Source: a virus
IMG/VR virus record: IMGVR_UViG_3300009157_000042
Coordinates: 1 to 27,294 of that record
Direction: 5' to 3' (one strand)
DNA: 27,294 nucleotides
The notes under the pieces were generated by a model. The model did not search any database, was not told the DNA's origin, and worked only from the letters and a program-made list of their open reading frames with translations. Of this stretch, positions 1,795 to 27,294 are shown piece by piece; the stretch's first letter is position 1; each line of letters opens with the position of its first letter. A program made the translations under genes and the position numbers.

Positions 1795-2958
1795 TTGGGG
1801 GACGAGCCGCAGCTAGCGACTGCGGAAAGGGACAGCCGCGACCCGGCATTGACACCGTCTGTCAACGCCGTCTTGTTGCGGCGTCAGCTTTCCGAGGCGT
1901 TGGCTGAAATACGCACGCTTCGGTACACGGTCGCGCATCAAGCGCGGCTGCTAGAGCACCTGGGACCCGAGACGCATCCTGCAGCACCGTCGGTGAACTG
2001 CGTGTACTGGCTCTTCTCCGACGTCCGCCGACACGAGAGGAGCTGGCATCTGCACTGGCAACGCCTCCAGCCCTCGCTACGTGGGCTCGGAACTATCCCG
2101 GCTACCGAAGTGACACCCAACGTATGGGCGAAGCACCTGGCGGCTCGCAGGCACGAAGAGCAACGAGGGGGAGGAACACCGTCGGGCGTCACCTTGAACA
2201 TCGAACTGGCGCGCCTCAAGGGCATGCTTGATTGGGCTGTCGAGGCGCAGCTAATCGACTTCAACCCGCTGCGAGCTGCGAAGCGAATCCAGGCCAGTGA
2301 CCAGCGGGAGACGAAGCTTTCCCCGGCCGACATCGACCGGCTGTTACTCGAGGCGGAGTCACTTCGCGATCAGCGGCTGTCGCCCGAAGACGACGATGGA
2401 ACGCGCTCGAAGCTTCTCCAGGCTGCCGCGTTGTGCTGGTTCGACTCCATGATGCGATTCAACGAAGCCCGCTCGATGCGACGGTCGCTGATTCAGCCAA
2501 ACGGCGACTACCGCATTCCACGCGAGCACACCAAGACGGACGCCGGGGCCCGTACCGTCACCCTGACAGCCAGGACCCTCGAAGCCATCCGGGCGATTCC
2601 CGTCGTCGAGGACAGCGACTACGTGTTTACCAATCCACGGACGGGAAAGCTTCTGAGCTACCACACGCTGCGTCGGTGGTTTCGGTGGACCTGTGAGAGC
2701 GCGAGACTCGACGCGAAGACAGCACCGCGAGACAAACGGATCGTGATTCACATGCTCAGACACGCCGGAGCAACCGCAGCGGACGCAGCGGGCGTCAGAC
2801 CTGGCGCGCTACAGACCGTGCTCGGACATCGCTCGCACGCCAGCACCGCCCGTTACCTCCACCGAGAGGGCGCCGAGTCAGCTCACCACGTCGCGGAGAA
2901 AATGGCCGAACTTGCGCACGGCGTAAAAAAGCGCAAGGGCCCTCGTAGAAAATATTGA
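1795..2958 (+). CDS. int: tyrosine recombinase integrase
   Basis: A 387-residue site-specific recombinase of the lambda-integrase family, catalysing integration and excision at att sites. An N-terminal helical part (1-60) and SAM-like core-binding domain (about 65-165) precede the catalytic domain, where the full set is visible: R221 (MRFNEA), K247 (HTKTDAG), H319 and R322 (HMLRHAG), H345 (LGHRS) and the nucleophile Y354 (TARYLH). The start is TTG 1795, with a purine-rich GGGGGAGAGAGG (1775-1786) eight bases upstream; no ATG or GTG start fits in this frame before the core-binding domain. The C-terminus is strongly basic. It stands alone between two structured non-coding regions. Confidence 0.95.
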   Translation: MGDEPQLATAERDSRDPALTPSVNAVLLRRQLSEALAEIRTLRYTVAHQARLLEHLGPETHPAAPSVNCVYWLFSDVRRHERSWHLHWQRLQPSLRGLGTIPATEVTPNVWAKHLAARRHEEQRGGGTPSGVTLNIELARLKGMLDWAVEAQLIDFNPLRAAKRIQASDQRETKLSPADIDRLLLEAESLRDQRLSPEDDDGTRSKLLQAAALCWFDSMMRFNEARSMRRSLIQPNGDYRIPREHTKTDAGARTVTLTARTLEAIRAIPVVEDSDYVFTNPRTGKLLSYHTLRRWFRWTCESARLDAKTAPRDKRIVIHMLRHAGATAADAAGVRPGALQTVLGHRSHASTARYLHREGAESAHHVAEKMAELAHGVKKRKGPRRKY

Positions 2959-2990
2959 CGGCTCCGGCTGAGTCGTGTTTCTTAGAAATC

Positions 2991-3096
2991 GTGACGCTCG
3001 AGTTCGTGCCCGGAAATCCCGCTCGCAAACCTGACCCGCATTCGAGCGTCACACCCCGCGTGCTGTCGGATGCGGGCGGGATTCCTGGACACGAAC
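2991..3096. repeat. interlocking inverted repeats downstream of integrase
   Basis: Two long inverted repeats interleave in A-B-A'-B' order. A is GTGACGCTCGA (2991-3001) with its perfect complement at 3042-3052. B (3002-3026) pairs with B' (3072-3096) at 21 of 25 positions, or 23 counting G-U. A third repeat, CCCGCAT (3035-3041) with ATGCGGG (3070-3076), competes with B'. A and B pairings cross, so an RNA copy would form a pseudoknot or switch between structures; as DNA it could be attP or an operator. It ends four bases before the AGGAGG of the next gene. Confidence 0.6.
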
Positions 3097-3110
3097 TTTA
3101 GGAGGTCGAG

Positions 3111-3248
3111 ATGCGCTCGCTATCGTTCAGATTGTGTGCAATTGCGTCACGTAATACAGGGCTGAAAGTCCGCACCGCCATCAAGGCTGGAGGCTTCGAC
3201 CCGCAGGGGGCTGGTAATCACAACCGCCGCTTGCTGGTGGTCCGGTGA
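3111..3248 (+). CDS. 45-residue basic peptide with KAGG...NHN motif
   Basis: ATG 3111 is preceded by a textbook AGGAGG (3100-3105) at five bases, and the stop overlaps the next GTG as GTGA, so this short frame is very probably translated. The product has nine arginines or lysines, one cysteine, and a segment GLKVRTAIKAGGF followed by GNHNRRLLV. From memory, short bacterial ORFs with a K-V-K/R-T-x-x-K-A-G-G ... N-H-N pattern occur widely without assigned function; I could not verify this. No membrane segment or HTH is evident. It is the first gene after the structured region and heads the long early operon. Confidence 0.7.
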   Translation: MRSLSFRLCAIASRNTGLKVRTAIKAGGFDPQGAGNHNRRLLVVR

Positions 3249-11031: not shown

Positions 11032-11049
11032 GCGTTGCTATAGTAACGC
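11032..11049 (+). promoter_or_regulatory. palindromic operator over extended -10 of a leaderless promoter
   Basis: The 18 bases GCGTTGCTATAGTAACGC form a palindrome with 5-base outer arms, a single mismatched pair and a CTATAG core. Within it lies an extended -10 element, TG at 11036-11037 followed by TATAGT at 11039-11044. A start site six or seven bases downstream would coincide with ATG 11050, and no Shine-Dalgarno is present, so the transcript is probably leaderless. A repressor on the palindrome would block this promoter; autoregulation by the HTH protein is a natural guess. No -35 match is seen. Confidence 0.6.
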
Positions 11050-11334
11050 ATGGGTGTACGAAGGTACTCGGCCAGGGAGCTTGCTAACAGCCTTGGCCTG
11101 CACATCCGCACCATCCAACGGGCCTGCAACCGTGGCGACCTAGTGGGCTTTCGTACCCCGAGCGGTCGCTACCACCTGATCGCTGAGCCAGCGCTTAATG
11201 ACTGGCTCGCGAATGAAGGGCGAATGGTACTCGCCCACGCGCTATCCCACTACCGCCGACGCCGTAACGCTGGATGCCAACCGAGCTCCACCAACCCTGC
11301 TACCAACGACAACGACACGAACAAACCCAAGTAG
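11050..11334 (+). CDS. excisionase/MerR-type HTH DNA-binding protein
   Basis: A 94-residue protein from ATG 11050. Residues 6-55 form a winged-helix module: YSARELANSLGLHIRTIQRA (helix-turn-helix), then CNRGDLVGFRTPSGRYHLI (the wing) and an AEPALNDWL helix, the pattern of phage excisionases and other MerR-like domains. The C-terminus is basic then asparagine/threonine-rich and disordered. Excisionase is possible in a phage with an integrase, although the genes are 8 kb apart; a lysis-lysogeny regulator is as likely. Expression appears to come from the palindromic leaderless promoter abutting its start. Confidence 0.8.
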   Translation: MGVRRYSARELANSLGLHIRTIQRACNRGDLVGFRTPSGRYHLIAEPALNDWLANEGRMVLAHALSHYRRRRNAGCQPSSTNPATNDNDTNKPK

Positions 11335-11373
11335 CTACGCATGGTTATGTAGTGTGAGACGTGGGTGTGCTGG

Positions 11374-11514
11374 CTCGAGTGACCCTGGGTAGGTACCCCC
11401 ACCCCCCAAAGTGCACAGTGCACTTTGTACGAGTAGTCACGTGGCTACAAGATAGGACCGTAGGGTCCTCTGGCCTATCGCGTTAGATAGGCGTGGGCTA
11501 GCTACTCCCCCCAC
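11374..11514. repeat. array of inverted repeats between convergent operons
   Basis: Almost every base belongs to a palindrome: CTCGAG (11374-11379), ACCC/GGGT (11382-11390), GGGTA/TACCC (11387-11398), a perfect 21-base one with arms CAAAGTGCAC (11407-11427), GTAGTCAC/GTGGCTAC (11433-11448), AGGACC/GGTCCT (11454-11469), GCCTATC/GATAGGC (11473-11492), GCTAGC (11497-11502) and GTGGG/CCCAC (11493-11514). Three successive centres, 11440.5, 11461.5 and 11482.5, are exactly 21 bases apart. Arm sequences differ. Bidirectional termination, an origin, or a structured RNA are the candidates. Confidence 0.6.
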
Positions 11515-11699
11515 GGTCCATTAGCACTGTCTCTGAGCTGACGAGGGGTGGGGAACTTCGGAGCAGGCCGCGTGCCCTCGCCGAGACAGGCGCAGCACTG
11601 GGCGAAAAGACACGGCGGCTTGCTAACTCCATTGCCCCCGCACACGTCGCAAACTACCCGTTCCTCGTCATCTACCAAGACAACCTCACCACCAGCCAT
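11502..11699 (-). CDS. DnaJ-type Cys-repeat microprotein
   Basis: Last gene of the leftward operon. With ATG 11699 it is 65 residues; the frame is open upstream to 11819 but that would overlap the previous genes heavily. CDVCGGNGVS and CACLGEGTR are two C-x-x-C-x-G-x-G repeats like the DnaJ zinc domain, with an extra CC between. The C-terminus is disordered and proline-rich. It probably binds one zinc ion. The start is uncertain because a small membrane-peptide frame (11672-11752) overlaps it. Confidence 0.55.
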   Translation of the reverse strand: MAGGEVVLVDDEERVVCDVCGGNGVSKPPCLFAQCCACLGEGTRPAPKFPTPRQLRDSANGPWGE

Positions 11700-11752
11700 A
11701 GCAGGAAAGCCCCCAGTACAAACCCCATGGCGAAAGAGTGGGTGTCCATCAT
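11672..11752 (-). CDS. 26-residue single-pass membrane peptide
   Basis: On the minus strand, ATG 11752 overlaps the preceding gene's TGA (ATGA). The product MMDTHSFAMGFVLGAFLLWL followed by VVRLSW is one hydrophobic helix with a short polar head and a basic end, much like the 32-residue peptide at 9873. It overlaps the next start by 28 bases, so one of the two starts may be wrong. Support is the overlap motif and composition only. Confidence 0.4.
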   Translation of the reverse strand: MMDTHSFAMGFVLGAFLLWLVVRLSW

Positions 11753-11991
11753 CCGGCCTCCCTGGCGTATTCCTGCACATCTTCCATCGCATGGCTGTCA
11801 CGCCGCTGGATGGCCACAAGGGCTGCGAACAGCACGGCTCGGGCCCGCCCCCTGACGGTTTTCCGCGCAGCCCTCACCGCATCCAGCGCGGCATCAGCCC
11901 CCTTCCCGGTCTCCAGGTAGGCCCGGATCGAAGCCGGCATCCCTGGCCACTTGTCAGCTACCGAGAGGGCGATTTTACGCAGTTCGCTCAA
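11749..11991 (-). CDS. alanine/arginine-rich helical protein
   Basis: An 80-residue protein from ATG 11991, overlapping the upstream TGA (ATGA at 11991-11988). Helical throughout, with a basic middle (ALDAVRAARKTVRGRARAVLFAALVAIQ). No family recognised. It lies between a CxxC helical protein and the putative membrane peptide in the leftward operon. Confidence 0.6.
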   Translation of the reverse strand: MSELRKIALSVADKWPGMPASIRAYLETGKGADAALDAVRAARKTVRGRARAVLFAALVAIQRRDSHAMEDVQEYAREAG

Positions 11992-12221
11992 TAACGTAAC
12001 CCGTCCAGCTCGCAGTCCAGGTCCCGTAGGTCACTGGCTGCATCTTGGACCCCGTGCCAGTCCTCGCTGTCCTGCTTCATCTTGAGATAGTCGATGAGGC
12101 GGGGACGGTTGGCTTCGAGCTCGGCGATTCGGTCTTGCCTGGCATCGGCCACGGCGGCTGCGCAGATTGAGCAAGGCGTCAGTGGAGAGTCTTCCCTGGT
12201 GTGGTTGAAGGCCGGGCTCAT
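11988..12221 (-). CDS. small CxxC coiled-coil protein
   Basis: A 77-residue protein from ATG 12221 (ATGA with the upstream stop). A CSIC pair near residue 17 is followed by a long charged helix (ADARQDRIAELEANRPRLID, then YLKMKQDSEDW) and a second helix (VQDAASDLRDLDCELDGL). It may dimerise as a coiled coil. Function unknown. Confidence 0.6.
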   Translation of the reverse strand: MSPAFNHTREDSPLTPCSICAAAVADARQDRIAELEANRPRLIDYLKMKQDSEDWHGVQDAASDLRDLDCELDGLRY

Positions 12222-12418
12222 CGCCTGCCCCTTTGCTCTTCCCCGTAGTACCCACTGTCCAGGTCAGCCTCCAACTCCCTCCTGCACCTGGTCCTCTCTA
12301 GGCTGCACAACAGCGGTAGCCAACACCGCTTGCCGTTAAACCAGCACTCCCCACCCCTCACCTTCTCAGCCTCCACAGCCGTCAGCTTACGTATCGGCCT
12401 CCAGTCGTGCGGCCTCAT
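12218..12418 (-). CDS. unknown small basic protein
   Basis: A 66-residue protein. ATG 12418 forms an ATGA overlap with the Fis-like gene's TGA; the frame is open to 12454 but only inside that gene. It begins MRPHDWRPIRKLTAVEAEKV, contains four cysteines (ECW, RCW, LLCS, RCRREL) and ends in a disordered, charged tail. No family recognised. Confidence 0.6.
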   Translation of the reverse strand: MRPHDWRPIRKLTAVEAEKVRGGECWFNGKRCWLPLLCSLERTRCRRELEADLDSGYYGEEQRGRR

Positions 12419-12600
12419 CGCCTGTCCCTTACCAGCGACTCCTCCGAGGCCCACCGCTTCCGGTACCGGATGAGCGTAGAGGGGCTGATCCCGAGCTCCA
12501 GGGCCAACCGGTGCTCAGGCACCGTCCCGCTGTAGTGGGTCAACACCGCCTCCACGTGCTCCCTGATTACTTCCTTGAGTGGTCGAATCGGGGGGGCCAT
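12415..12600 (-). CDS. Fis-type helix-turn-helix regulator
   Basis: A 61-residue protein from ATG 12600, immediately after the HNH stop, with GGAAG six bases upstream. It is essentially one HTH: helix (EVIREHVEAVLTHYSG), then RLALELGISPSTLIRYRKRW, whose G-I-S-x-S-T-L-x-R-Y-R-K-R-W recognition helix matches Fis-type and sigma-54-activator C-terminal HTHs (K-x-A-x-x-L-G-I-S-x-x-T-L-x-R-x-L-K). At this size it can only be a DNA-binding dimer. It is a candidate regulator of the divergent control region. Confidence 0.7.
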   Translation of the reverse strand: MAPPIRPLKEVIREHVEAVLTHYSGTVPEHRLALELGISPSTLIRYRKRWASEESLVRDRR

Positions 12601-12918
12601 CTAGCGCTTCCATCGGTTTCCTTGTGGGGGGATGCGCCCGCGCTCGAAGGCGTCGCGGACGTTTTCGGCGTAGGTGCCGAGGGTTAGGTGCGAGGGCCGG
12701 ACGCACTTCCGGTTGTCGCAGGCGTGGCGGATCACAAGTCCCCTCGTCGCCTTCCGCCCGTGGGCTATCTCCCATGAGGCCCGGTGGGCGCCGATGGTCC
12801 GTCCGGCGTAGCGGATATGCCCGTAGCCGCCTCCCCCGAGCGGCCCCTGCCACTCCCAGCACAGGTCCTCTGGCGCCTGTTTCACTAGTCCCCAGAACCT
12901 GGCTTCCTGCCTGTCCAT
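12601..12918 (-). CDS. HNH endonuclease (homing-type)
   Basis: A 105-residue protein started at ATG 12918, giving MDRQEARFWGLVKQ, which aligns with the usual N-terminus of such HNH proteins; an ATG at 12969 would add 17 low-complexity residues from AT-rich DNA. The family signature is complete: CWEWQG, GYGHIRYAGRTIGAHRASWE, then GLVIRHACDNRKCVRPSHL and TYAENVRDAFERGR. The H-x(n)-H-x-C-D-N-x-x-C-V-x-P-x-H-L core binds the metal and the last helix binds DNA. In phages these are mobile or DNA-nicking enzymes. As the first gene of a leftward operon it may be a captured free-standing homing endonuclease. Confidence 0.85.
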   Translation of the reverse strand: MDRQEARFWGLVKQAPEDLCWEWQGPLGGGGYGHIRYAGRTIGAHRASWEIAHGRKATRGLVIRHACDNRKCVRPSHLTLGTYAENVRDAFERGRIPPQGNRWKR

Positions 12919-12983
12919 CCTGATTGTCAGCTTAGAATATGTATTATTACTTGTAAAGAAAGAATACATCCTGTAAAGAAAAA
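12919..12983. promoter_or_regulatory. AT-rich divergent control region with direct repeats
   Basis: A markedly AT-rich stretch in a GC-rich genome, between leftward HNH and rightward late genes. TGTAAAGAAA occurs twice, at 12952-12961 and 12972-12981, exactly 20 bases apart, so one protein could bind both on the same face. The rightward strand offers TTGTCA (12924-12929), TAGAAT (12933-12938) and TATTAT (12942-12947); the opposite strand offers TTTACA elements within the repeats. Exact promoters cannot be fixed by eye. Confidence 0.5.
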
Positions 12984-16982: not shown

Positions 16983-17437
16983 ACCCGACGATCGAAAGAC
17001 CGGTCCGGACGAAGAAGGTCACGCCGGAGGAGCTGCCTCAATGGAGTGCCTTCGAAGCCATCCCGTGGATGCAGGAGGTAAAGCGGCTCCTGGATCAAGT
17101 CTACGTCACTTCCCGAAGCTTCCCAACTGCAGCTACTGGAACCTTTACGACCGTCTACAGCACGCCAGACTTGGCCGAGGGCTTCGACTGGATGCTCGAA
17201 GCTCGCATCATGGCCCACGCTTCCTCGGCCCGCTCGTCGTGGATCATAGAGGGCCTGTTCTATAACGACGGGACCGTCCAGCAGGCAGGGGCGACCTTCG
17301 CCATCTACACGCAAACCACAGCGGCCTTCAACGTCCAATTTCTCATCGTCGACAACCATATCGAGGTTCAAGTCCAGGACGACGGGGCCCTGGATGTGAA
17401 GTGGCGGGTGTGGATCGACTTGCGGGAGAGCCCGTGA
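16979..17437 (+). CDS. unknown beta-rich late protein
   Basis: A 152-residue protein from GTG 16979 (GTGA overlap). N-terminal 45 residues are polar with a helix (SAFEAIPWMQEVKRLLDQVY); from about 55 it is strand-rich (TGTFTTVYSTPDLAEGF, WMLEARIMAHA, ATFAIYTQTTAAFNVQFLIV, HIEVQVQD, DVKWRVWIDL). This fits a jelly-roll or beta-sandwich structural protein such as a head-fibre or tail component. It directly precedes and overlaps the large terminase. Function unknown. Confidence 0.6.
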   Translation: MNPTIERPVRTKKVTPEELPQWSAFEAIPWMQEVKRLLDQVYVTSRSFPTAATGTFTTVYSTPDLAEGFDWMLEARIMAHASSARSSWIIEGLFYNDGTVQQAGATFAIYTQTTAAFNVQFLIVDNHIEVQVQDDGALDVKWRVWIDLRESP

Positions 17438-18987
17438 GCTTCAAGTTTCGCCCCCACCCAGGAGCCCAGGAGCGCTTCATGGCGTTCAAGGGCCGCTATG
17501 CGCTCATCGGTGGCGCGGCTGGTGGTGGAAAGTCTGACTGCCTTCTCTACGACCCGTTTCGCCAGGTGAAGGTCGAGCAGGAGCGGGTTAATCGCGGCGA
17601 GATTGTCTCGTCAACAGGCCGCGCGATTCTCTTCCGGCGAACGATGCCGGAGCTTCGCGAAGTCATGGACCGCGCGCGGCGTACGTTCGAGCTCATCGAC
17701 CCGGGCGCCAAGTGGCATGAGCAAACGAAGACCTGGACCCTTTCTTGCGACTACAAGTTCATGTTTGGCCAGATGGAGGAAGACTCCGACTGGATCAAGT
17801 ACTACTCGTTTGAGTTCACATGGGCTGGCTTCGACGAGCTAACGACGTTCACGGAAGACCAGTTCGACCAAATCGACACCCGCGTCCGCTCGTCTGATCC
17901 GGTGCTCTCGAAAATGCTCTACGTCCGCGCCGGAACGAACCCGGTCGGTCCTGGTCTCGAATGGGTGCGACGTCGGTTTGTCGAGGTAGCTCCTCCCAAT
18001 ACCCCGGTCATACGTCGAATCAAGACTCCCGTTATCCAGGACGGCGTTACGCGCTACGAGACGGTAGAGCGGGAGCAAATCTTCATCCCCGCCCGCCTGT
18101 TCGATAACCCGAGCATCGACCAGAAGGAATACGCCGCCACGCTGACGGGAAAGTCAGCGGCGACACGCAAGGCACTGCTTGAGGGCGACTGGTACGCCAA
18201 CACCGAGGGGGCTTGGGTGGGTGACGACTGGGACTCTTCGATTCACGTGTGCGAGCCGTTCAAGGTTCCCCCTGGCTGGCCCAAGTTCCGCATGGGTGAC
18301 TACGGCTATTCATGGCCCGGACTTGCTTCCATCCAGTGGGGAGCTACGGACCCGGACGGGAACATCACCATCTACCGCTCGCTGACGACCGTTCGTCAGA
18401 ACGCCGAGATGCTGGCGTATCGCGTGAAAGAAATCGAGATGGACGCGGGTGAGTGGGACTTGGACCGCCACTGCTCAAAGCTTCGAGGTCCACTCGATTC
18501 GTCTTGCTGGAATCAGACGGGAGCCATCGGTCCCACTATCGCGGAGTCCTTCTTCAACGTCGGCGTCATTTGGGACAAGTGCGACAAAAACCGAACCGCT
18601 GCCGCAGAGCAGTTCCGTCAACGTCTCGTGAGACGTACTGCCCACGCGACGATCAAGGACGAGAACGGCAAACCGGCCTACATCGTTCCCGGCATTCGCT
18701 GGTTTAACACTTGCTACTCGTACGTCCGCAGTCCACGGGGAGCCAAGGTTAAGGTCGGTCCCGTGGTGACGATTCCGGTTCTACCGGCGGACGAGAACGA
18801 TCCGGACGTTCCCGATACCCACGGCAATGATCACGACTGGGACGCAGCGGCCTACGGGTGCATGTCGCGTCCCATCGTCGCCGAGAACGACAAGGTCCAC
18901 CCCGACGAACTGAAAGAGCGGCGCAAGCGTCAGAAGGACTCTGAGCGCTCGGTTAACAAACTTGGCTACCCACAGGGGGCATGGTGA
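17434..18987 (+). CDS. terL: terminase large subunit
   Basis: A 517-residue ATP-driven DNA packaging motor. GTG 17434 is chosen (GTGA overlap). Walker A is GGAAGGGKSD (26-35) and Walker B with catalytic acid is AGFDE (131-135); an LFRRTMPELR segment and coupling region lie between. The C-terminal RNase H-like nuclease shows FRMGDYGYSWPGLASIQW, a middle acidic segment, and HDWDAAAYG near the end, consistent with metal-binding acids. Family-typical length. It works with the portal encoded immediately after (ATGGTGA overlap). No convincing small subunit sits next to it, which is unusual. Confidence 0.95.
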   Translation: MSFKFRPHPGAQERFMAFKGRYALIGGAAGGGKSDCLLYDPFRQVKVEQERVNRGEIVSSTGRAILFRRTMPELREVMDRARRTFELIDPGAKWHEQTKTWTLSCDYKFMFGQMEEDSDWIKYYSFEFTWAGFDELTTFTEDQFDQIDTRVRSSDPVLSKMLYVRAGTNPVGPGLEWVRRRFVEVAPPNTPVIRRIKTPVIQDGVTRYETVEREQIFIPARLFDNPSIDQKEYAATLTGKSAATRKALLEGDWYANTEGAWVGDDWDSSIHVCEPFKVPPGWPKFRMGDYGYSWPGLASIQWGATDPDGNITIYRSLTTVRQNAEMLAYRVKEIEMDAGEWDLDRHCSKLRGPLDSSCWNQTGAIGPTIAESFFNVGVIWDKCDKNRTAAAEQFRQRLVRRTAHATIKDENGKPAYIVPGIRWFNTCYSYVRSPRGAKVKVGPVVTIPVLPADENDPDVPDTHGNDHDWDAAAYGCMSRPIVAENDKVHPDELKERRKRQKDSERSVNKLGYPQGAW

Positions 18988-21356
18988 TGCAGACCGAAAT
19001 AGAGACACCGACCGACGACATGGGACCATTCACCGAAGTTCCCATCGACGAAGAGGTCAAACCCAAGGTGTCTTCCTTCGCCGAAGCGCTGGGAAAAGCT
19101 CCTGAGACGGTGAACCTCGCCGAAATCATGTCCGAGGAGGACCTGAAGAAGTGCGGGGAGAAGGTCTGCCGAAACAAAGACCGCGACTTCCAGGGCTCGA
19201 AGAAGTACCGCGAGCGTCGGGCGTCGATTCTGCGTCTGTTTCTCGGCGATTTGCCCGCCCCCATCGACGGGGAAGAGCTTGCCCACGCGCAAGTTCACTA
19301 CCCAATCATCGCCAAAGCCGTGCAGCGCATCCACGCGCGAATCTACGACCAGCAGTTCCCGTCAAACGGTGAGTTTTTCGGCGTCAAGCCGACGGACGCG
19401 ACCGACCTGGAGCGAGCGATCCGTGTCGGCAAACACCTGAACTGGCAGATTCAGCACCAAATCCCCGAGTACGTCCCGAACCACGACGTTCTCATCATGC
19501 AGTGGCTTCTCTACGGGTCGGCGTTCTCATACATGTACTGGGACCCGGTGAAAAACCGGCCCTGTCACGAGGTCTGCCGCACGGAAGACATGATTCTTCC
19601 CTACAAGCGTTGCTCAACAGACCCGAGCTTGGCTGACATGCCTCGCATCACGCGGATTCTGCGCAAGTACCGGCATGAGTTGGAGGAGATGGAGGACGCG
19701 GGCTACTACATCAACGTCACGGAGCTGTTCGAAGAGCTCGACGAGAAGGACGAGACGGCGGGAGTCGACCAAAGCAACGACGCGCAGTCAGATCACCCCG
19801 TCCAGAAGGCCATCGACCACGAGTCAGGCGTCGAGAAGCCCGAAAACGACCCCGACGCCCCTCGTGTACTGCTGGAGCAGCACTGCTGGTACAAGTTGCC
19901 GGGAGAAAAGCGGTCCAAGGCGGTGATCATCACCGTGGACGAGCAAACGAAGCTCGTTTTGTGCCTGAAACTGCGCGAGGACGACGATCCGCAGGACAAA
20001 GCTCGCTACAACCGCGAAAAGGAGGCCTACCGCGCCGCCTACGAGGCTGCCATGCAGCAGTATTCGATGGACATGGCCGCCTACGAGGCTGGGCAGGCCC
20101 AGGCGATGACCATGCCGCCCATGCCGGGAGAAATGACGGCAACCGTCCCGCCGATGATGGGCGAAACGTCGTCAACGGGGCCGCTTATGCCACCGCCTCA
20201 GCCTCCCCCGCCTCCGCCAGAGCCGGATGCGCCCAAGCAAGTCGCGATCAACTTCTTCACCCACTACATCTGCATTCCCAACCCGGAAGGCGTGTACGGG
20301 TTTGGTGTCGGGTCGGAACTCGAAGGCAACAACATGGCCGCCGACACGCTGACGTCGCAAATCGTTGACGCGGCGACCCTGGCGAACACCGTAGGCGGTT
20401 TCATCTCGCGGCAGTTCAAGGCGAGCCGCGATGACCTCCGATACCGGCCGGGGGAGTTCATCGAGACGGACGCGATGGCTCAGGACTTGGACAAGATGAT
20501 CAAGATCATCCAGTTTCCCGGCCCTGAGCCCGCCATGGGCCAGCTCGTGAAGGACCAGAAGGAAGAAGCCGAAGAACTGTCGGGCGCTGGGGACATTCTC
20601 TCCGGCGAAGTAGGCGGCTCGAACGAAACCGCGACCACCACGCAGATTCGTATCAGCCAGGCCATGGCAGCAATTGCCATCTGGAACAAGCGGTATACGC
20701 GGGCGCGAACGGTCGAAGGCGAACATCTCGCTCGCCTCAATTCGGTCTACCTCGGTGACGAAGAGTTTTTCACCGTCGTCGACCCGTTCAAGAACGTACC
20801 CGGCAACATGCCGGCTCCTGGTATGCCGCCCGCTGGCATGCCGCCGATGGGAGGGGCACCTCCGATCCAGGGCGGTCCGGGGACCCCTCCACCCGCGGCC
20901 GGGCCACCCCCTATCCCCGCGCCGCCCCCGGCACCGCCCCCTATTCCAGGTCCGTCAATCGAAAAGGTCCCAGTCGGAAGAATGGACTACCTACTCGATA
21001 CCGACCTGACTGTTACCGCCGACCCACGGATGGCCTCGCAGCCTCAGAGATTCCAGGAGGCACAGACCATCATGAACATCATCAACTCAACACCAGCTAC
21101 CCAGGCGATGCCGCTGGTTCAGATTGCCGGCCTCCGACTCATCTTCAAGGCCATCGACAATACGGAGATGACCGCGGCGCTGAATCAGCAACTCTCGATG
21201 CCGCCTCCGATGCCGATGCCTGGGCCCGGTGGCCAGCCCCCGCCCGGAGGACCGCCGCAGGAAGGTGGCGGGGGACCGCCGCAGCCTGACAACGCTGTTC
21301 CCAACTCGGGCAATCAACCCATGAACGGCGAAGCGCTGGCAGGCCAGGTGACGTGA
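18981..21356 (+). CDS. portal protein
   Basis: A 791-residue portal, the ring at the capsid vertex through which DNA is packaged. ATG 18981 overlaps the terminase stop. The N-terminal 350 residues contain the clip/wing-type helices and a YGSAFSYMYWDPV strand pair; GAGDILSGEVGGSNETATTT and QIRISQAMAAIAIWNKRYTR in the middle are typical of large portals, which often have E-T-A-T before this helix. Length is near the P22 class. Unusual are three Pro/Met/Gly-rich insertions at about 373-416, 606-660 and 738-773, the last being an extended disordered C-terminus. Assignment rests on context and motifs. Confidence 0.85.
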   Translation: MVMQTEIETPTDDMGPFTEVPIDEEVKPKVSSFAEALGKAPETVNLAEIMSEEDLKKCGEKVCRNKDRDFQGSKKYRERRASILRLFLGDLPAPIDGEELAHAQVHYPIIAKAVQRIHARIYDQQFPSNGEFFGVKPTDATDLERAIRVGKHLNWQIQHQIPEYVPNHDVLIMQWLLYGSAFSYMYWDPVKNRPCHEVCRTEDMILPYKRCSTDPSLADMPRITRILRKYRHELEEMEDAGYYINVTELFEELDEKDETAGVDQSNDAQSDHPVQKAIDHESGVEKPENDPDAPRVLLEQHCWYKLPGEKRSKAVIITVDEQTKLVLCLKLREDDDPQDKARYNREKEAYRAAYEAAMQQYSMDMAAYEAGQAQAMTMPPMPGEMTATVPPMMGETSSTGPLMPPPQPPPPPPEPDAPKQVAINFFTHYICIPNPEGVYGFGVGSELEGNNMAADTLTSQIVDAATLANTVGGFISRQFKASRDDLRYRPGEFIETDAMAQDLDKMIKIIQFPGPEPAMGQLVKDQKEEAEELSGAGDILSGEVGGSNETATTTQIRISQAMAAIAIWNKRYTRARTVEGEHLARLNSVYLGDEEFFTVVDPFKNVPGNMPAPGMPPAGMPPMGGAPPIQGGPGTPPPAAGPPPIPAPPPAPPPIPGPSIEKVPVGRMDYLLDTDLTVTADPRMASQPQRFQEAQTIMNIINSTPATQAMPLVQIAGLRLIFKAIDNTEMTAALNQQLSMPPPMPMPGPGGQPPPGGPPQEGGGGPPQPDNAVPNSGNQPMNGEALAGQVT

Positions 21357-21589
21357 TGGACTTCGACAGCCTTGCGCCAGAGCAACGAGAGGAGTGGCGA
21401 CGCCACGAAATCACCTCTCGCGCGCTCTCCATGCTGCGCGAGGCGGAGAACACAGCGGCCAACGGCGTAACGACATCCGCCGAGGTCGGCACGCTCGAGG
21501 AGATTCGTTTTGCCGCTGGCTATCGGCGGGGGATTGGAAAAGCCATCGACCTACTCACGAGGGAGCGCAATGAAAAGCAAGCTCGATAA
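21356..21589 (+). CDS. small head-region protein
   Basis: A 77-residue protein; ATG 21356 is preferred over GTG 21353 because AGGTG at 21346-21350 is better placed. It is charged and helical: LAPEQREEWRRHEITSRALS, then a short linker and EIRFAAGYRRGIGKAIDLLT. The layout (short helix, loop, 'A-x-G-x-x-x-G-I-x-x-A-I-x-L-L') matches unnamed proteins often found after phage portals. Function unknown. Confidence 0.65.
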   Translation: MDFDSLAPEQREEWRRHEITSRALSMLREAENTAANGVTTSAEVGTLEEIRFAAGYRRGIGKAIDLLTRERNEKQAR

Positions 21590-22010
21590 GGTACGCGAAC
21601 AATACAAAGACCAGATTCCACCCATCCCCTACCTCCCAGTCGGGGAAGTGGTGCTGGTCTACAGGCTTCCGTCGGAGGAGAAGACAGCGGGCGGGCTGTA
21701 CGTTCCCGAAGAGCACAGGTCCCCTGTCTCCAGCGGAATCCTCATCGCCGCTGGTCTAGCAGCTCGGGACGTGATGGCGGACTCCCTGATCGAAGTCGGA
21801 GACATCGTCTACTTCGCCCGCTTTGCCGGGGATGAGAAGGAATTCAAGCGCGAAGCCGCGGGGAAGGCAGAGAAGCTCTTGCAGCTAAAGATGCGCGAAA
21901 TCCTCGGCTCCGCTGACGGATTGGAGCGCTCCAAGCACTACCGAATCGTCCTCAAGACCTACGACGATGGAACCTCTGAACACATCTACGAGCGAAAGGA
22001 AGCAGCCTGA
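21570..22010 (+). CDS. GroES-like co-chaperonin
   Basis: A 146-residue protein from ATG 21570 with GGGAG just upstream; it overlaps the preceding gene by 20 bases. PVGEVVLVYRLPSEEKTAGG followed by LYVPEE aligns with the GroES start and mobile loop (L-x-D-R-V-x-V-x-x ... E-x-K-T-A-G-G-I-x-x-P), and EVGDIVYFARFAGDE matches the V-G-D-x-V-x-F-x-x-Y-x-G strand of the barrel. It exceeds host GroES by about 50 residues, with an inserted charged helix (FKREAAGKAEKLLQLKM) and a basic tail. T4 gp31 is the precedent: a phage GroES that adapts GroEL to fold the capsid protein. Position between portal and scaffold supports this. Confidence 0.85.
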   Translation: MKSKLDKVREQYKDQIPPIPYLPVGEVVLVYRLPSEEKTAGGLYVPEEHRSPVSSGILIAAGLAARDVMADSLIEVGDIVYFARFAGDEKEFKREAAGKAEKLLQLKMREILGSADGLERSKHYRIVLKTYDDGTSEHIYERKEAA

Positions 22011-22909
22011 TGGAAACGCAAACGGAAACCGTCGAGACCGAGACCCCGGACGTCGAGCCAGTCGAGGCAACGACCGAAGTCGAGACGACCCCCGTCGAAA
22101 CCCCGGCCGCTGTAGATCGTCCACCGTCAGACCGCAAGAACCGCAAGGCCCAACGCCTGGACGTCGAGGCCGCCGAACGACGAGCCCAGGAGTTCCAACG
22201 CTCGCTGGAGACCGAGCGTCAGGAGCGCCAGCGTATCGAGCGGGAAGTCGCCGAGATGCGCCAGGAGCGCCAGCAGCGCGATCGGCAGACGCAGAGCCAG
22301 AGCCAAGCCGAGCAGACGAAGGAGAAAATCGCCTCTCTCCGTCGGGTGGCGCAGATGCACCTCGCCCGCTCTGCCCAACTGCAGGGCGCCGAAGCCCAAA
22401 AAGCATGGGACGAGTTCCAGCGGTGCGAGGACGAAGCTCGGGACCTCCGCGACGAGATGCGCGACAACGAGCGCTGGGAGAAGCGCAAGGGCGAGCTCCA
22501 ACAGCAGATGCCCAATCCCCAGGCAACCCAGGCCCTCGCCGGCCACGAAACAGCCTACCCCTGGCTCACGACGAACCAGGAAGCCGTGAACATGGCCGAC
22601 ACGAGGCTCACATACCTAATGAACGCCGGCCGACCCCTAAACCGCCAGACCGTCGTCGAGGCTCTGTCCTGGACGGCCAGGGCGATGGGTCTCGGCGGCC
22701 ACCAGCCGGCAACTGACGCTCAACGGGCACGTTACGGAGGTATCCCGGGAGGGGAGGGGGCAGGCAATGGCGAAGGTCCCCGGACGATCAAAATGGGCCG
22801 CCACGAAGAGGCACTGGCCAAAGCCGCCTATCCCCAACTCGAAGCCAAACAGGCCTATAAGCAGTGGGCCAAGGACGTTGCCGCGCGGCAGTCGGGGGAC
22901 GACGACTAG
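22010..22909 (+). CDS. capsid scaffolding protein candidate
   Basis: A 299-residue protein from ATG 22010 (TGATG overlap). It starts with an acidic Thr/Glu/Val repeat (METQTETVETETPDVEPVEA), then a long charged coiled coil (about 45-165: ERRAQEFQRSLETERQERQR and on), then a more globular C-terminal half with an AYPWLTTNQEAVNMADTRLT segment and a basic tail. Acidic start, coiled-coil middle and basic C-terminus upstream of the coat gene are the features of internal scaffolds. Because the coat lacks an N-terminal delta domain, a separate scaffold is expected. Confidence 0.75.
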   Translation: METQTETVETETPDVEPVEATTEVETTPVETPAAVDRPPSDRKNRKAQRLDVEAAERRAQEFQRSLETERQERQRIEREVAEMRQERQQRDRQTQSQSQAEQTKEKIASLRRVAQMHLARSAQLQGAEAQKAWDEFQRCEDEARDLRDEMRDNERWEKRKGELQQQMPNPQATQALAGHETAYPWLTTNQEAVNMADTRLTYLMNAGRPLNRQTVVEALSWTARAMGLGGHQPATDAQRARYGGIPGGEGAGNGEGPRTIKMGRHEEALAKAAYPQLEAKQAYKQWAKDVAARQSGDDD

Positions 22910-23031
22910 TGCTTTGCGGTAAATGCAGGAAGGAGCACCGCATCCCCGGCCAACGCTGGGGGTATGCGTGCTTTGCCGCGTATCAGCGCGAATACCGTAA
23001 AACGAAACGCCAGCAACGCACGGAAGGCTGA
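22909..23031 (+). CDS. 40-residue Cys/His microprotein
   Basis: GTG 22909 overlaps the scaffold TAG by one base. The product has CGKC at the start, H10 and C21, then a basic end (YQREYRKTKRQQRTEG), a likely zinc site. The Y-x-R-E-Y-R tail occurs in other small phage zinc proteins. Supported by junction and composition; no family assigned. Confidence 0.5.
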   Translation: MLCGKCRKEHRIPGQRWGYACFAAYQREYRKTKRQQRTEG

Positions 23032-23167
23032 TTGACTTCGACGTTGAGTTAATCGAACACTATCAGCATCGGCATCGGGTCCTAACCATCGGCCCGGTAG
23101 TTGGCTCCAAGGTGGTCCCCCTCCTCCGCAAGAGGGCACGGGCGGTAACCAGAACACCGGAGCCGTC
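23032..23167. other. 136-base non-coding gap in the head module
   Basis: The longest gap of the late operon. A hairpin CCCTC/GAGGG (23119-23136) is visible without a T-run. TTGACT (23032-23037) has no -10 at good spacing; the nearest TATCAG lies 23 bases on. No promoter or terminator can be claimed. Confidence 0.3.
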
Positions 23168-23599
23168 ATGCCCGAAGCCGAGTCAGCAGCGCCGAAGAAG
23201 CGTAGAGGCCGCCCGCCCGGGAAGACCGCGCGTCGTCACGACCCGGAACCGGCACCGGTCAACGGCGACTACTCGAAGGATGTCGTTCTCGGCAAGGAAG
23301 CCGGCAAGCGTTACGCCTGGCTGACCCCGAGCGGCATCGACGCCGACGTCCCGAACTTCCGCCACCGCGGCTATATGAAGACCGAGCGCCGCCCCGACGG
23401 CCCCCGTCCTGCGTGGGACCTGGGGAAAGAGGGCGACGCCGGCTTTGAGGTCGGTGGACTGGAGCTGTACGAAGCCGACGACGAAACGGTCGCTCGGTAC
23501 GAGGCCCACCAGCGGACTCCCTCGGAGCGCCGGATGGAAGGCATTCACGCCGCCGCGAAAGCGACCGGCGGCTACATGACCCGAAACGTGGAGAGGTAA
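23168..23599 (+). CDS. AT-hook-like basic protein in head module
   Basis: A 143-residue protein from ATG 23168. Residues 9-22 (PKKRRGRPPGKTAR) contain the R-G-R-P core of an AT-hook, a minor-groove DNA-binding motif; the remainder has a WLTPSGIDADVPNFRHRGY segment and a charged C-terminus. The hook might contact packaged DNA or simply be a disordered basic tail. It sits directly before the decoration and coat genes, so a minor head protein is plausible. No family recognised. Confidence 0.6.
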   Translation: MPEAESAAPKKRRGRPPGKTARRHDPEPAPVNGDYSKDVVLGKEAGKRYAWLTPSGIDADVPNFRHRGYMKTERRPDGPRPAWDLGKEGDAGFEVGGLELYEADDETVARYEAHQRTPSERRMEGIHAAAKATGGYMTRNVER

Positions 23600-23602
23600 C
23601 CC

Positions 23603-24232
23603 ATGGCTAACGTAACGATTGGCGGGTATCGCGCAGTGGGGACGCTCTCGGGCGCTCCCTTGCCGACTCCCATGGTTCGCGAAGTCGCGAATAACTACGG
23701 CACCGCGCTCGGCGTCGGTGACGTGTTGGCCGCTGCCACCGACGGGACTGTCACCGTTGCTGGTACCACGGCGGGCGTCATCATCGGCGTTGCCGAGGGG
23801 TTCTCGTACGTCACTGGCGGTAAGCGGACGTATTCGAACTACCTTCCGGCTAACACGACGTTCTCCCCTACGACCGTTGGATCGCGGAATGCGTCGCTGG
23901 TGCAGTTCACCCCCTGCACGCCGGACGTCATCTTCGCGGTTCAGGCCGACGAGGGAACGACGTTCACGACCATCGCGACGCAGATTTCCGCTCTCCAGGA
24001 AAACTGCGACCTCGTGGCTGGTACCCCGGACGCGAACACAGGTCAGTCGACGTTCGCTCTCGACATCTCGACCCACGCGACGGCGACGTTCAACTTCCGA
24101 ATCATCGGAATCCGCGGCTACACGCTGGCGGGTCTCGAGCTTGGAACGAACGACCCGACGGCAAGTCGGTTCGAGTTCTTGGTGGTCTGCAACGAGTCTC
24201 TGTGGCCCACCGGCACTGCGACGGGAGTCTAA
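23603..24232 (+). CDS. capsid decoration/structural cement-like protein
   Basis: A 209-residue protein from ATG 23603. Gly/Thr/Val-rich and strand-dominated (NVTIGGYRAVGTLSGAPLPT, ATDGTVTVAGTTAGVIIGVA), as in the small head proteins that precede the coat gene in many phages and bind its surface. The alternating 'D-G-T-V-x-V-A-G-T-T-A-G-V-I-I-G-V' resembles the DUF2190-like beta-barrel of trimeric cement proteins. Assignment is by composition, fold pattern and the gap of only three bases to the coat gene. Confidence 0.6.
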   Translation: MANVTIGGYRAVGTLSGAPLPTPMVREVANNYGTALGVGDVLAAATDGTVTVAGTTAGVIIGVAEGFSYVTGGKRTYSNYLPANTTFSPTTVGSRNASLVQFTPCTPDVIFAVQADEGTTFTTIATQISALQENCDLVAGTPDANTGQSTFALDISTHATATFNFRIIGIRGYTLAGLELGTNDPTASRFEFLVVCNESLWPTGTATGV

Positions 24233-24235
24233 GTC

Positions 24236-25141
24236 ATGGCGAATCCAGCAGCGAATACAGCAACGATCGCCCCGTTTCTCAAGCCCACCCTGGACATCGT
24301 CTGGGGTACGAACATCAAGGGCAAACTGGACTGGGAGGATTCGGGCTTCGACGTGTCGAACACGACCGATGCCTACATCGATGACCAGGAGCGCGCCTCC
24401 ACGGGTCCGATGCAGGTCAAGGTCGAGAACGAGCTCGCGGCGATCGACTCCTTCGCTACCGGCTATTCCAAGCGGTATGTGATGGTCGCGTACGCGCAGC
24501 GCGTGATTGTCTCGAAAGAGGCCATCGCCGATGCGAAGTACGAAGAGGCCGTCAACGGTGCAGCGGACGTGGCCCAGGCCGCCAAGCTGACCCAGGAATA
24601 CACCGCGGCGAGCGTCTGGATCAACGCCTACACCTCCGGCTACAACGGCGGCGACGGTGTGGTCCTCGGCTCGGCGTCTCACCCGCTCGTCAAGGGTGGC
24701 ACGTATTCCAACATGCTCACGACGTTCATGAGCCTGTCGGAGACGGCCATCGAGACGATGGTGATTAACGCCTCGCAGATGCCGGACTCCAATGGCTGGC
24801 TGGTCAACGGGTACAACATCAAAAAGATGATCATCCCGAAGGCCCTGGAGTTCCGCTGCATGCGGATTCTCAAGTCGGCCAACCAGAACGACACGGCCAA
24901 CAACGCGATCAACGCCCTCAAGTCGAAGAACATCGACATGGGCGTCAACCGCTACTTCACCAGCTCCACCCAGTACGGCGCGAAGACCGACGCGAAAGCC
25001 GGCCTGCGATTCGTGTGGCGTGAGAAGCCCAGCTTCGACGACGAGTCGGACGAGAAGCGCAAGAGCAAGACCTTCATCGGCTACGAGCGCTTCGCTGTCG
25101 GCTGGACGAATCCTCGCGGCGTCTACCTCTCGAACACCTAA
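24236..25141 (+). CDS. major capsid protein (HK97-like)
   Basis: A 301-residue coat protein from ATG 24236. Visible are an N-terminal arm, an E-loop region (QVKVENELAAIDSFATGYSK), and the P-domain with GVVLGSASHPLVKGGTYSN around residues 141-158, a motif shared by many HK97-fold coat proteins, followed by MPDSNGWLVNGYNIKKMIIP, KALEFRCMRILKS and the C-terminal A-domain strands (RYFTSSTQYGAKT, LRFVWREKP). There is no N-terminal scaffold domain, consistent with the separate scaffold upstream. It lies downstream of the decoration gene and upstream of the twin beta-helix proteins. Confidence 0.9.
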   Translation: MANPAANTATIAPFLKPTLDIVWGTNIKGKLDWEDSGFDVSNTTDAYIDDQERASTGPMQVKVENELAAIDSFATGYSKRYVMVAYAQRVIVSKEAIADAKYEEAVNGAADVAQAAKLTQEYTAASVWINAYTSGYNGGDGVVLGSASHPLVKGGTYSNMLTTFMSLSETAIETMVINASQMPDSNGWLVNGYNIKKMIIPKALEFRCMRILKSANQNDTANNAINALKSKNIDMGVNRYFTSSTQYGAKTDAKAGLRFVWREKPSFDDESDEKRKSKTFIGYERFAVGWTNPRGVYLSNT

Positions 25142-25154
25142 AGGGGCTTGACCC

Positions 25155-26114
25155 ATGGCCAACAACAACGTTTACGCGAACTACCCCGGGGTTCAGGAAG
25201 TCGTCGGCATGGTGATTTCCCCGAACGGGGGGGCCGTCTTCTACGTCGGCACGGCGGCGCAGCTTGCCGCTCTCGGCCAGACGGGGGAATGCATCAACTC
25301 CCGCGCCTCGCTGACCGTAGACGCGGCGCTGGCCCAGTGTGTCTCGGGACGTGGAGACTTCGTCTACATCCTTCCGGGGTACACCGAGACCGTCTCGGCG
25401 GCTGACGCCTGGTCCAGTCTCGGCACCAAGACGGCGGTTTCGATCGTCGGCCTCGGTACGGGGATGAATCGCCCGACCTTCACCTACTCGGCGGCGGCGG
25501 CGACCATCCTGATGGACGCGGCGAATCTCGCCATCCGCAACTGCATTTTCTACATGGCGGGCGCGACTGGTTCGTCAACGGCTCTCACGGTGGCGGCTCC
25601 GATCACGGTGTCGGCTGCTGGTTGCGCCATCACGGACTGCTACATCCACTTCGGTGTGGATGCCGACCAGCTCGTCACTATCGGCATCACCACGACTGCG
25701 GCTGCTGACAACTTCGAGTTCAAGCGAAACCAGTGCTATGGCGCCACGGCGGCGGCTTGCACTTCGTTCCTGTACCTCGTCGGCGCTGACTGGTGCCAGA
25801 TTTGGGACAACACCATCATTGGCGGGACCAGTTCGGTCAACGTCGGCGTGGTGCGGTTCATTACCACGGCCTCCATCGGAATCGACTTCCGTCGAAACGC
25901 CTTCATGAACATCACGGCGTCGTCGGTCCATGCGGTAACGCAGATGGCTGGCGTGCTGGGACAGGTTCAGGATTGCAATTTCGGCATCCTGAACGACTCC
26001 GGCCTGGCCGGGTGGGTGCCAGCCGGCGCTGGTGACGGGCCGCAGCTCTTCAACTGCCGTACGGCGAACCTGGCCGGCGAGGCCGGCGGCATCACGACTC
26101 CGGTCAGCACCTAG
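25155..26114 (+). CDS. beta-helix surface protein, copy 1
   Basis: A 319-residue protein from ATG 25155. It has no signal peptide. Short regularly repeating strands with alternating Gly, Asn, Cys and Asp (AITDCYIHFGV, NFEFKRNQCYG, CQIWDNTIIGG, IDFRRNAFMN, QVQDCNFGI) are the pattern of right-handed parallel beta-helices as in tailspikes and pectate-lyase-like proteins. A lead-in (SLTVDAALAQCVSGRGDFVYILPGYTE) is typical of 'adapter' parts of such proteins. No catalytic residues for polysaccharide cleavage are identifiable. It follows the coat gene and is paralogous to the next gene. Confidence 0.75.
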   Translation: MANNNVYANYPGVQEVVGMVISPNGGAVFYVGTAAQLAALGQTGECINSRASLTVDAALAQCVSGRGDFVYILPGYTETVSAADAWSSLGTKTAVSIVGLGTGMNRPTFTYSAAAATILMDAANLAIRNCIFYMAGATGSSTALTVAAPITVSAAGCAITDCYIHFGVDADQLVTIGITTTAAADNFEFKRNQCYGATAAACTSFLYLVGADWCQIWDNTIIGGTSSVNVGVVRFITTASIGIDFRRNAFMNITASSVHAVTQMAGVLGQVQDCNFGILNDSGLAGWVPAGAGDGPQLFNCRTANLAGEAGGITTPVST

Positions 26115-26116
26115 TC

Positions 26117-27076
26117 ATGTCGCAGCTCAACAACTCCGTGACCCAGCCTGGGGTTCTCGAACTCGGGAACCTCTGTCTTTCGGTCACGGGTGGCAAGGTC
26201 TTCTATGTCGGGACCGCTGCCATGCTGGCGAACTACTCCGACGTCGGAGTAGGTATCCAGTCGCGTACGTTCACGGACGTCAACACCGCGCTTGCATCGT
26301 GCGAGTCTGGCCGAGGAGACGTGATTTTCGTCCTCCCCGGCTACACGGAGAGCATCGCCGCTGCTGATTCGTGGTCCAATCTGGCGGCCAAGACGGACAT
26401 CACCATCGTTGGCATGGGCGGCGGAACGAATCGTCCCACGTTCACGTGGACAACCGCGACGTCAACGGTCCTCTTCGACACGGCCAACTTCAAACTGCTC
26501 AACTGCAACCTGTATCTCGCTGGCGCGCATGCGGCCGGTTCAGCGCTCACGGTCGCAGCCCCGATCACGGTGTCGGCGGCCGGCTGTGAAATCTCAGACT
26601 GCACGATTTTCTTTGGCTTCGACGCCGATCAACTGGTGACTATCGGCGTGACCACGACGGCAAACGCGGACTTCTTCAAGTTCAACCGCAACTACTGCTA
26701 CGGGGCGACCGCAGCCGCTTGCACGTCGTTTTTCTACGCCGTCGGCGCGGACTACCTCCAGATGTACGACAACACGATCATCGGCGGCACCAGCGCCACG
26801 ACCGTTGGTGTGTTGCGGTTCATTACCACCGCGTCGATCGGCATCGACCTGCGCCGCAACAACTTCGTAAACATGAGGGCTGCCTCGATTCACGCCGTCA
26901 CGCAGATGGCCGGGGTGCTGGGGCTCGTGTCTGATTGCAGCTTCGGAATTCTCGACGGCGCCACTCTGGCCGGGTGGGTGCCAGCCGGGGCCGGCGACGG
27001 TCCCCTGTTCTTCCGCTGTTACACAGCAAACCTCGCTGGCGAGTCTGGTGCCTTGACGACCCCGGTGAGCACCTAG
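26117..27076 (+). CDS. beta-helix surface protein, copy 2
   Basis: Also 319 residues, from ATG 26117, two bases after copy 1 stops. It aligns without gaps: the first 25 residues differ, the middle is partly similar, and from about residue 140 most positions are identical (TVAAPITVSAAGC, CYGATAAACTSF, NTIIGGTS, RFITTASIGID, HAVTQMAGVLG, AGWVPAGAGDGP and the ending TTPVST). The repeat pattern is the same right-handed beta-helix. A tandem duplication is the simplest origin; the divergent N-termini suggest different attachment partners. Confidence 0.75.
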   Translation: MSQLNNSVTQPGVLELGNLCLSVTGGKVFYVGTAAMLANYSDVGVGIQSRTFTDVNTALASCESGRGDVIFVLPGYTESIAAADSWSNLAAKTDITIVGMGGGTNRPTFTWTTATSTVLFDTANFKLLNCNLYLAGAHAAGSALTVAAPITVSAAGCEISDCTIFFGFDADQLVTIGVTTTANADFFKFNRNYCYGATAAACTSFFYAVGADYLQMYDNTIIGGTSATTVGVLRFITTASIGIDLRRNNFVNMRAASIHAVTQMAGVLGLVSDCSFGILDGATLAGWVPAGAGDGPLFFRCYTANLAGESGALTTPVST

Positions 27077-27084
27077 GAGACGAC

Positions 27085-27270
27085 ATGAGCAAGGACGACA
27101 AGAAGGTCACTCCACTGGTTCACACGGCGGAGCCTATGCCTCAGACCGGATGTGTGGTCTGCGGCTCGTATGCGGGGAAGCTCGTCGGAGTCACGACGGC
27201 TGCCCGCGCGCACGAAGCGTGCTCCGCGAATCGGCCCGACGTCATCGCCAAGGTCAAGGCTCGCGCCTAA
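27085..27270 (+). CDS. CxxC small protein
   Basis: A 61-residue protein from ATG 27085, with AGGAG at 27075-27079. Start SKDDKKVTPLV is basic and acidic, then CVVCGSYAGKLVGVT and HEACSANRPD give three cysteines and a histidine, a possible zinc site. C-terminus KVKARA is basic. No family recognised; it follows the beta-helix genes and may be a minor virion or assembly protein. Confidence 0.55.
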   Translation: MSKDDKKVTPLVHTAEPMPQTGCVVCGSYAGKLVGVTTAARAHEACSANRPDVIAKVKARA

Positions 27271-27288
27271 GAAAGCCACGGAGGGCAC

Positions 27289-27294
27289 ATGGCC
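27289..27294 (+). CDS. start of a further gene (3' partial)
   Basis: ATG 27289 is preceded by GGAGGG at 27280-27285. Only two codons lie inside the window, so nothing can be said about the product. Confidence 0.5.

Follow-up and report, generated by a model that had tools for sequence, protein, structure and literature searches.

Among described transcript ends, those that depend on Rho offer one of the closest parallels to the locus reported here. RhoTermPredict recognises them by a two-step rule, a 78-nt stretch with more C than G and a C every 11-13 nt, then a hairpin within 150 nt; the rule is of low specificity, with 23,930 predictions in E. coli (PMC6407284). Rho-dependent 3' ends, which are protected from 3' exonucleases, are enriched in stable stem-loops, and 3' ends with U-poor, structured stem-loops occur frequently in a genome of high GC content (PMC8269248, PMC7815308). 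The cluster of palindromes described here was found at positions 11374-11514 of a stretch of 27,294 nt (the window), i.e. positions 1-27,294 of IMG/VR record IMGVR_UViG_3300009157_000042. It resembles Rho-dependent terminators with protective stem-loops (PMC6407284, PMC8269248, PMC7815308) in that a C-rich, G-poor stretch of 78 nt with regularly spaced C lies at a gene end, with hairpins no more than 150 nt downstream and no U-tract. Yet in the cluster both Rho use and the 3' ends are putative, there are five hairpins instead of one, and the C-rich stretch is strong for the rightward transcript only. Likewise, GC-rich stem-loops past a stop codon, lacking a U-tract, in a genome of 61% GC recall the U-poor ('I-shaped') stem-loop terminators of GC-rich bacteria (PMC8269248), although each stem in the cluster is short and of modest stability (the two scored come to about -4 to -8 kcal/mol).

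Two further systems were compared. Bidirectional intrinsic terminators share with the cluster palindromes common to two convergent stops, here including a 21-nt palindrome flanked by AAA/TTT; in contrast to them, the U-tracts of the cluster are too weak both ways and all its terminator scores are below 0. REP elements (GTAG-tagged palindromes, PMC3733652) are also short palindromes 3' of genes, often between convergent ones, and one stem of the cluster starts with GTAG. However, the palindromes of the cluster are single copies with unrelated stems, and their GTAG is paired within the stem, unlike the unpaired GTAG or CGTC tag of REP. The cluster was not assigned to this class since repeats of array words in the window stay within chance expectation and GTAG is part of a stem. 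No REP transposase was recognised.

The window is that of an uncultivated temperate tailed phage with a GC content of about 61%. Its integrase, terminase, portal-like and capsid genes are listed in Table 1; their products share only about 26-35% identity with those of the nearest annotated relatives. A phage-encoded GroES-like co-chaperonin (Cpn10, E 1.2e-10) occurs just past the portal gene (21510-22010), and a tandem pair of paralogous genes (319 aa each, about 70% DNA identity) directly 3' of the capsid gene (25155-27076). A search of the window found neither tRNA nor tmRNA.

Table 1. Position of the palindromes, their flanking genes and the main phage genes in the window.
Feature	Coordinates	Strand	Remarks
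Tyrosine integrase	1795-2958		
Last gene of rightward operon	11050-11334	+	94 aa; HTH_17 domain (excisionase-like)
Rut-like stretch, C-rich and G-poor	11230-11307	+	end of last rightward gene; C 37, G 14; C spacing 11-13 nt
Palindrome	11387-11398	both	GGGTAGGTACCC
Predicted five-way junction	11387-11507	+	closing helix 11387-11402 / 11493-11507 around four hairpins
Perfect 21-base palindrome	11407-11427	both	CAAAGTGCAC-A-GTGCACTTTG; 10-bp arms, 1-nt centre
Hairpin	11433-11448	+	GTAGTC-ACGT-GGCTAC; 6 bp, one U-G pair on + strand
Hairpin	11454-11469	both	AGGACC-GTAG-GGTCCT
Hairpin	11473-11492	both	GCCTATC-GCGTTA-GATAGGC; 9 nt past last stop of leftward operon
Last gene of leftward operon	11502-11699	-	CxxCxGxG pairs, DnaJ-like zinc finger by eye
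Rest of leftward operon	11749-12969	-	five genes, overlapping or abutting
Leftward gene	11749-11991	-	
Leftward gene	11988-12221	-	
Leftward gene	12218-12454	-	
Leftward gene	12415-12600	-	HTH
Leftward gene	12601-12969	-	HNH endonuclease
Terminase	17401-18987		
Portal-like protein	18981-21356		similarity to annotated phage proteins
Capsid	24236-25141		similarity to annotated phage proteins

The first-pass annotation had placed the palindromes between convergent operons, and this setting was confirmed. The leftward operon comprises six genes and is considered real because the genes overlap (among the upstream five, by 4 nt twice and by 40 nt once) and display a codon-position GC like that of the structural genes. 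Its TAG stop codon occupies 11504-11502, facing the rightward stop at 11334; the palindromes thus sit in a true 3'-3' gap of 167 nt (11335-11501). Directly 5' of the ATG of the HTH_17 gene lies a further, near-perfect palindrome of 18 bases, GCGTTGCTATAGTAACGC (11032-11049), which looks like a candidate autoregulatory operator.

Eight or nine inverted repeats had been reported in the cluster, a number that holds only if palindromes of 4-6 bases (CTCGAG, GGTACC, TAGCTA) are counted. With Watson-Crick stems of at least 5 bp, there are four (11387-11398, 11407-11427, 11454-11469 and 11473-11492), the fifth (11433-11448) requiring one G-T pair. The perfect 21-base palindrome is indeed present; its GC-richer stem with AAA/TTT flanks makes it weakly terminator-like in both directions. 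Another perfect palindrome with 10-bp arms occurs at 26233-26252, inside a coding gene. As stated previously, the centres of the last three hairpins (11440.5, 11461.5 and 11482.5) are exactly 21 nt apart, but the proposed 21-base period does not extend to the others, the adjoining spacings being 24.5 and 23.5 nt. The observation that stems differ between palindromes, with no common half-site, also held, which makes an operator array for a single repressor unlikely.

No ordinary terminator was found in the array: none of its sites passed a scan for hairpins with at least 5 T in 8, none of its hairpins has a proper U-tract, and the best Carafa-type scores were -34 to -36, a normal terminator scoring above 0. 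On the - strand, hairpin 11454-11469 is followed by ATCTTGTA (4 T in 8). Since no site on either strand of the whole window scored above 0, the phage appears to be without ordinary intrinsic terminators and probably ends its transcripts in another way. The C-rich stretch at the end of the HTH_17 gene displayed a C/G ratio of 2.64 and a chain of 7, among the top 0.7% of + strand windows. It conforms to the first step of RhoTermPredict (C/G above 1, C every 11-13 nt), and the second step, a GC-rich hairpin or pause motif no more than 150 nt downstream, is provided by hairpin 11433-11448, which lies inside 11308-11457, with 11454-11469 straddling the limit. Among 46 gene ends, the one at 11334 ranked second in rut-like C/G and first in downstream hairpin content, and was the sole one to pair a strong C-rich stretch with the largest downstream hairpin content. 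The gene end at 11502 tied for first in hairpins; on this leftward side, the C-rich stretch (11532-11609) has a C/G ratio of 1.52 and a chain of 6. Finally, as would be looked for in a bidirectional terminator, the four Watson-Crick palindromes, which pair on both strands, lie between the two convergent stops.

The cluster is probably a two-sided transcript-end region in which termination is assisted by Rho or takes place at U-poor hairpins. The C-rich stretch of the rightward transcripts, in which the HTH_17 gene comes last, would be the loading site of Rho or of a factor equivalent to it, and the hairpins 70-190 nt downstream of this stretch would slow the polymerase and lead to release. The message would subsequently be trimmed by 3' exonucleases back to the stable stems, the stem-loops protecting the mRNA 3' ends. 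Leftward transcripts would encounter the identical palindromes directly past their own stop codon, so that one DNA segment may serve both directions. Such a role requires stems that pair on both strands, without a common stem sequence, which matches what is seen. Most likely, then, the hairpins at the operon ends form an ordinary transcript-end site, and not a new kind of element. The bidirectional terminator was one of three options offered by the first-pass annotation (together with a multi-hairpin RNA and a cruciform-type origin) and fits best, albeit only in a form that is assisted by Rho or uses U-poor hairpins, given the lack of a proper U-tract.

Whether the cluster could be devoid of function, i.e. 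short palindromes grouped by chance in a narrow gap without coding sequence and noticed because they are striking, was evaluated by shuffling. The cluster scored 28 (summed Watson-Crick stem length); when 11374-11514 was dinucleotide-shuffled 5000 times, this value was reached 3 times. For the natural gap, 1 shuffle in 2000 had as many palindromes, the lowest figure among the seven gaps tested and about 0.004 after correction for these seven. A cluster of this strength is therefore rare among local shuffles, but not when the search is widened: in shuffled 27-kb windows, the best 141-nt cluster anywhere reached 28 in 28 of 160 trials (17%), and a stem of at least 10 bp appeared in 39 of 160. 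Two further observations favour chance: within the portal gene, a region at 20761 reaches 26 where the cluster has 28, and as RNA the entire gap folds in no unusual way (see below). When G-U pairs were allowed, 111 of 5000 shuffles of 11374-11514 matched the palindrome excess; it is at its greatest when Watson-Crick pairs alone are counted and is thus strand-symmetric. Since local shuffles rarely match the cluster while best-of-window and G-U-allowed shuffles do so more often, it exceeds chance moderately, not overwhelmingly. The figures for the gap, together with the coincidence of the cluster with a C-rich stretch and with convergent gene ends, make an absence of function rather unlikely.

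A discrete structured RNA, released from the rightward transcript and folding on the + strand into the five-way junction with four hairpins, was considered improbable. The junction is both the minimum-energy and the centroid structure predicted for the + strand of 11374-11514; in it, the left half of palindrome 11387-11398 pairs with 11493-11507 as closing helix. The G-U pairs of hairpin 2 and of the closing helix function on this strand only. However, the z-score of -3.3 was obtained with the boundaries chosen by the first-pass annotation, where the - strand adopted a different fold (z -2.1); with the natural boundaries of the gap, values fell to -2.1 (+) and -1.6 (-), which coding segments also reach. 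When flanks of about 50 nt were included at both ends, the + strand preferred to pair CCCCACCCC (11397-11405) with GGGGTGGGG (11545-11553) over 9 bp, which disrupts the closing helix and rearranges both right-hand hairpins. Moreover, the closing helix extends into the stop codon of the leftward gene. Rfam gave no match at gathering score anywhere in the window, nor, with E values up to 5 admitted, in 11300-11600.

Likewise, no homologue of the array was found in phages (distant blastn), viral contigs (queried with the HTH_17, zinc-finger, terminase, capsid and HNH proteins, the 12984 ORF and the exact palindrome pattern), GTDB genomes (integrase and capsid), plasmids or the whole records of 18 distant relatives (HTH_17 protein and array DNA). 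Two capsid relatives, L096 (the same virus, 99.99%) and L097 (75% DNA identity), both end short of the array, overlapping the window only at 19736-27294 and at 22783-27293 (structural end), respectively. HNH relatives matched in the HNH gene only, besides weak scattered tblastx matches.

In a window-wide scan of local folds, the cluster (Lfold z -4.4, a value in favour of a discrete RNA) took about the 15th place on the + strand and was outranked by the gaps on both sides of the integrase. Its folding is thus not exceptional for this phage, and the earlier claim that it is the least explained element of the window was abandoned. The window's most extreme + strand local fold (z -5.7, the - strand being nearly as strong) was observed right after the integrase stop (2988-3113), where a long imperfect inverted repeat (27-nt arms, 85%) is accompanied by overlapping 23-nt arms; this is a candidate attP region or leader of a 45-aa ORF (3111-3248). 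The non-coding gap 5' of the integrase (1629-1794) contains several hairpins and folds strongly on both strands (z -3.2 and -3.7).

That the cluster acts at the DNA level, as a set of operators, a site of recombination or an origin based on cruciforms, is very improbable in spite of palindromes symmetric on both strands, an adjoining excisionase-like gene and centres about two helical turns apart, because the stems have no half-site in common, words from the array are found elsewhere in the window no more often than chance predicts, the integrase is 8 kb distant and has strong inverted repeats of its own beside it, the repeat search showed no iterons, cumulative G-C skew is at a maximum here instead of a minimum, no initiator was recognised among the proteins scanned near the site (part of the ORFs), and convergent transcription produces positive supercoiling, which disfavours cruciforms. 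Three words that the array shares with the region upstream of the integrase (AGTCACGTGG, AGGACCGTA in reverse and GCTAGCTAC) were not taken as evidence: about 0.5 would be expected for this pair of regions, 15 such pairs were compared, and two of the three contain palindromic words.

If the cluster does act as a two-sided transcript end, this phage would be another example of a GC-rich phage without recognisable intrinsic terminators that separates two converging operons, the separation being achieved by shared palindromes and a C-rich Rho-loading stretch. This would help to annotate such phages, and would involve no new mechanism.
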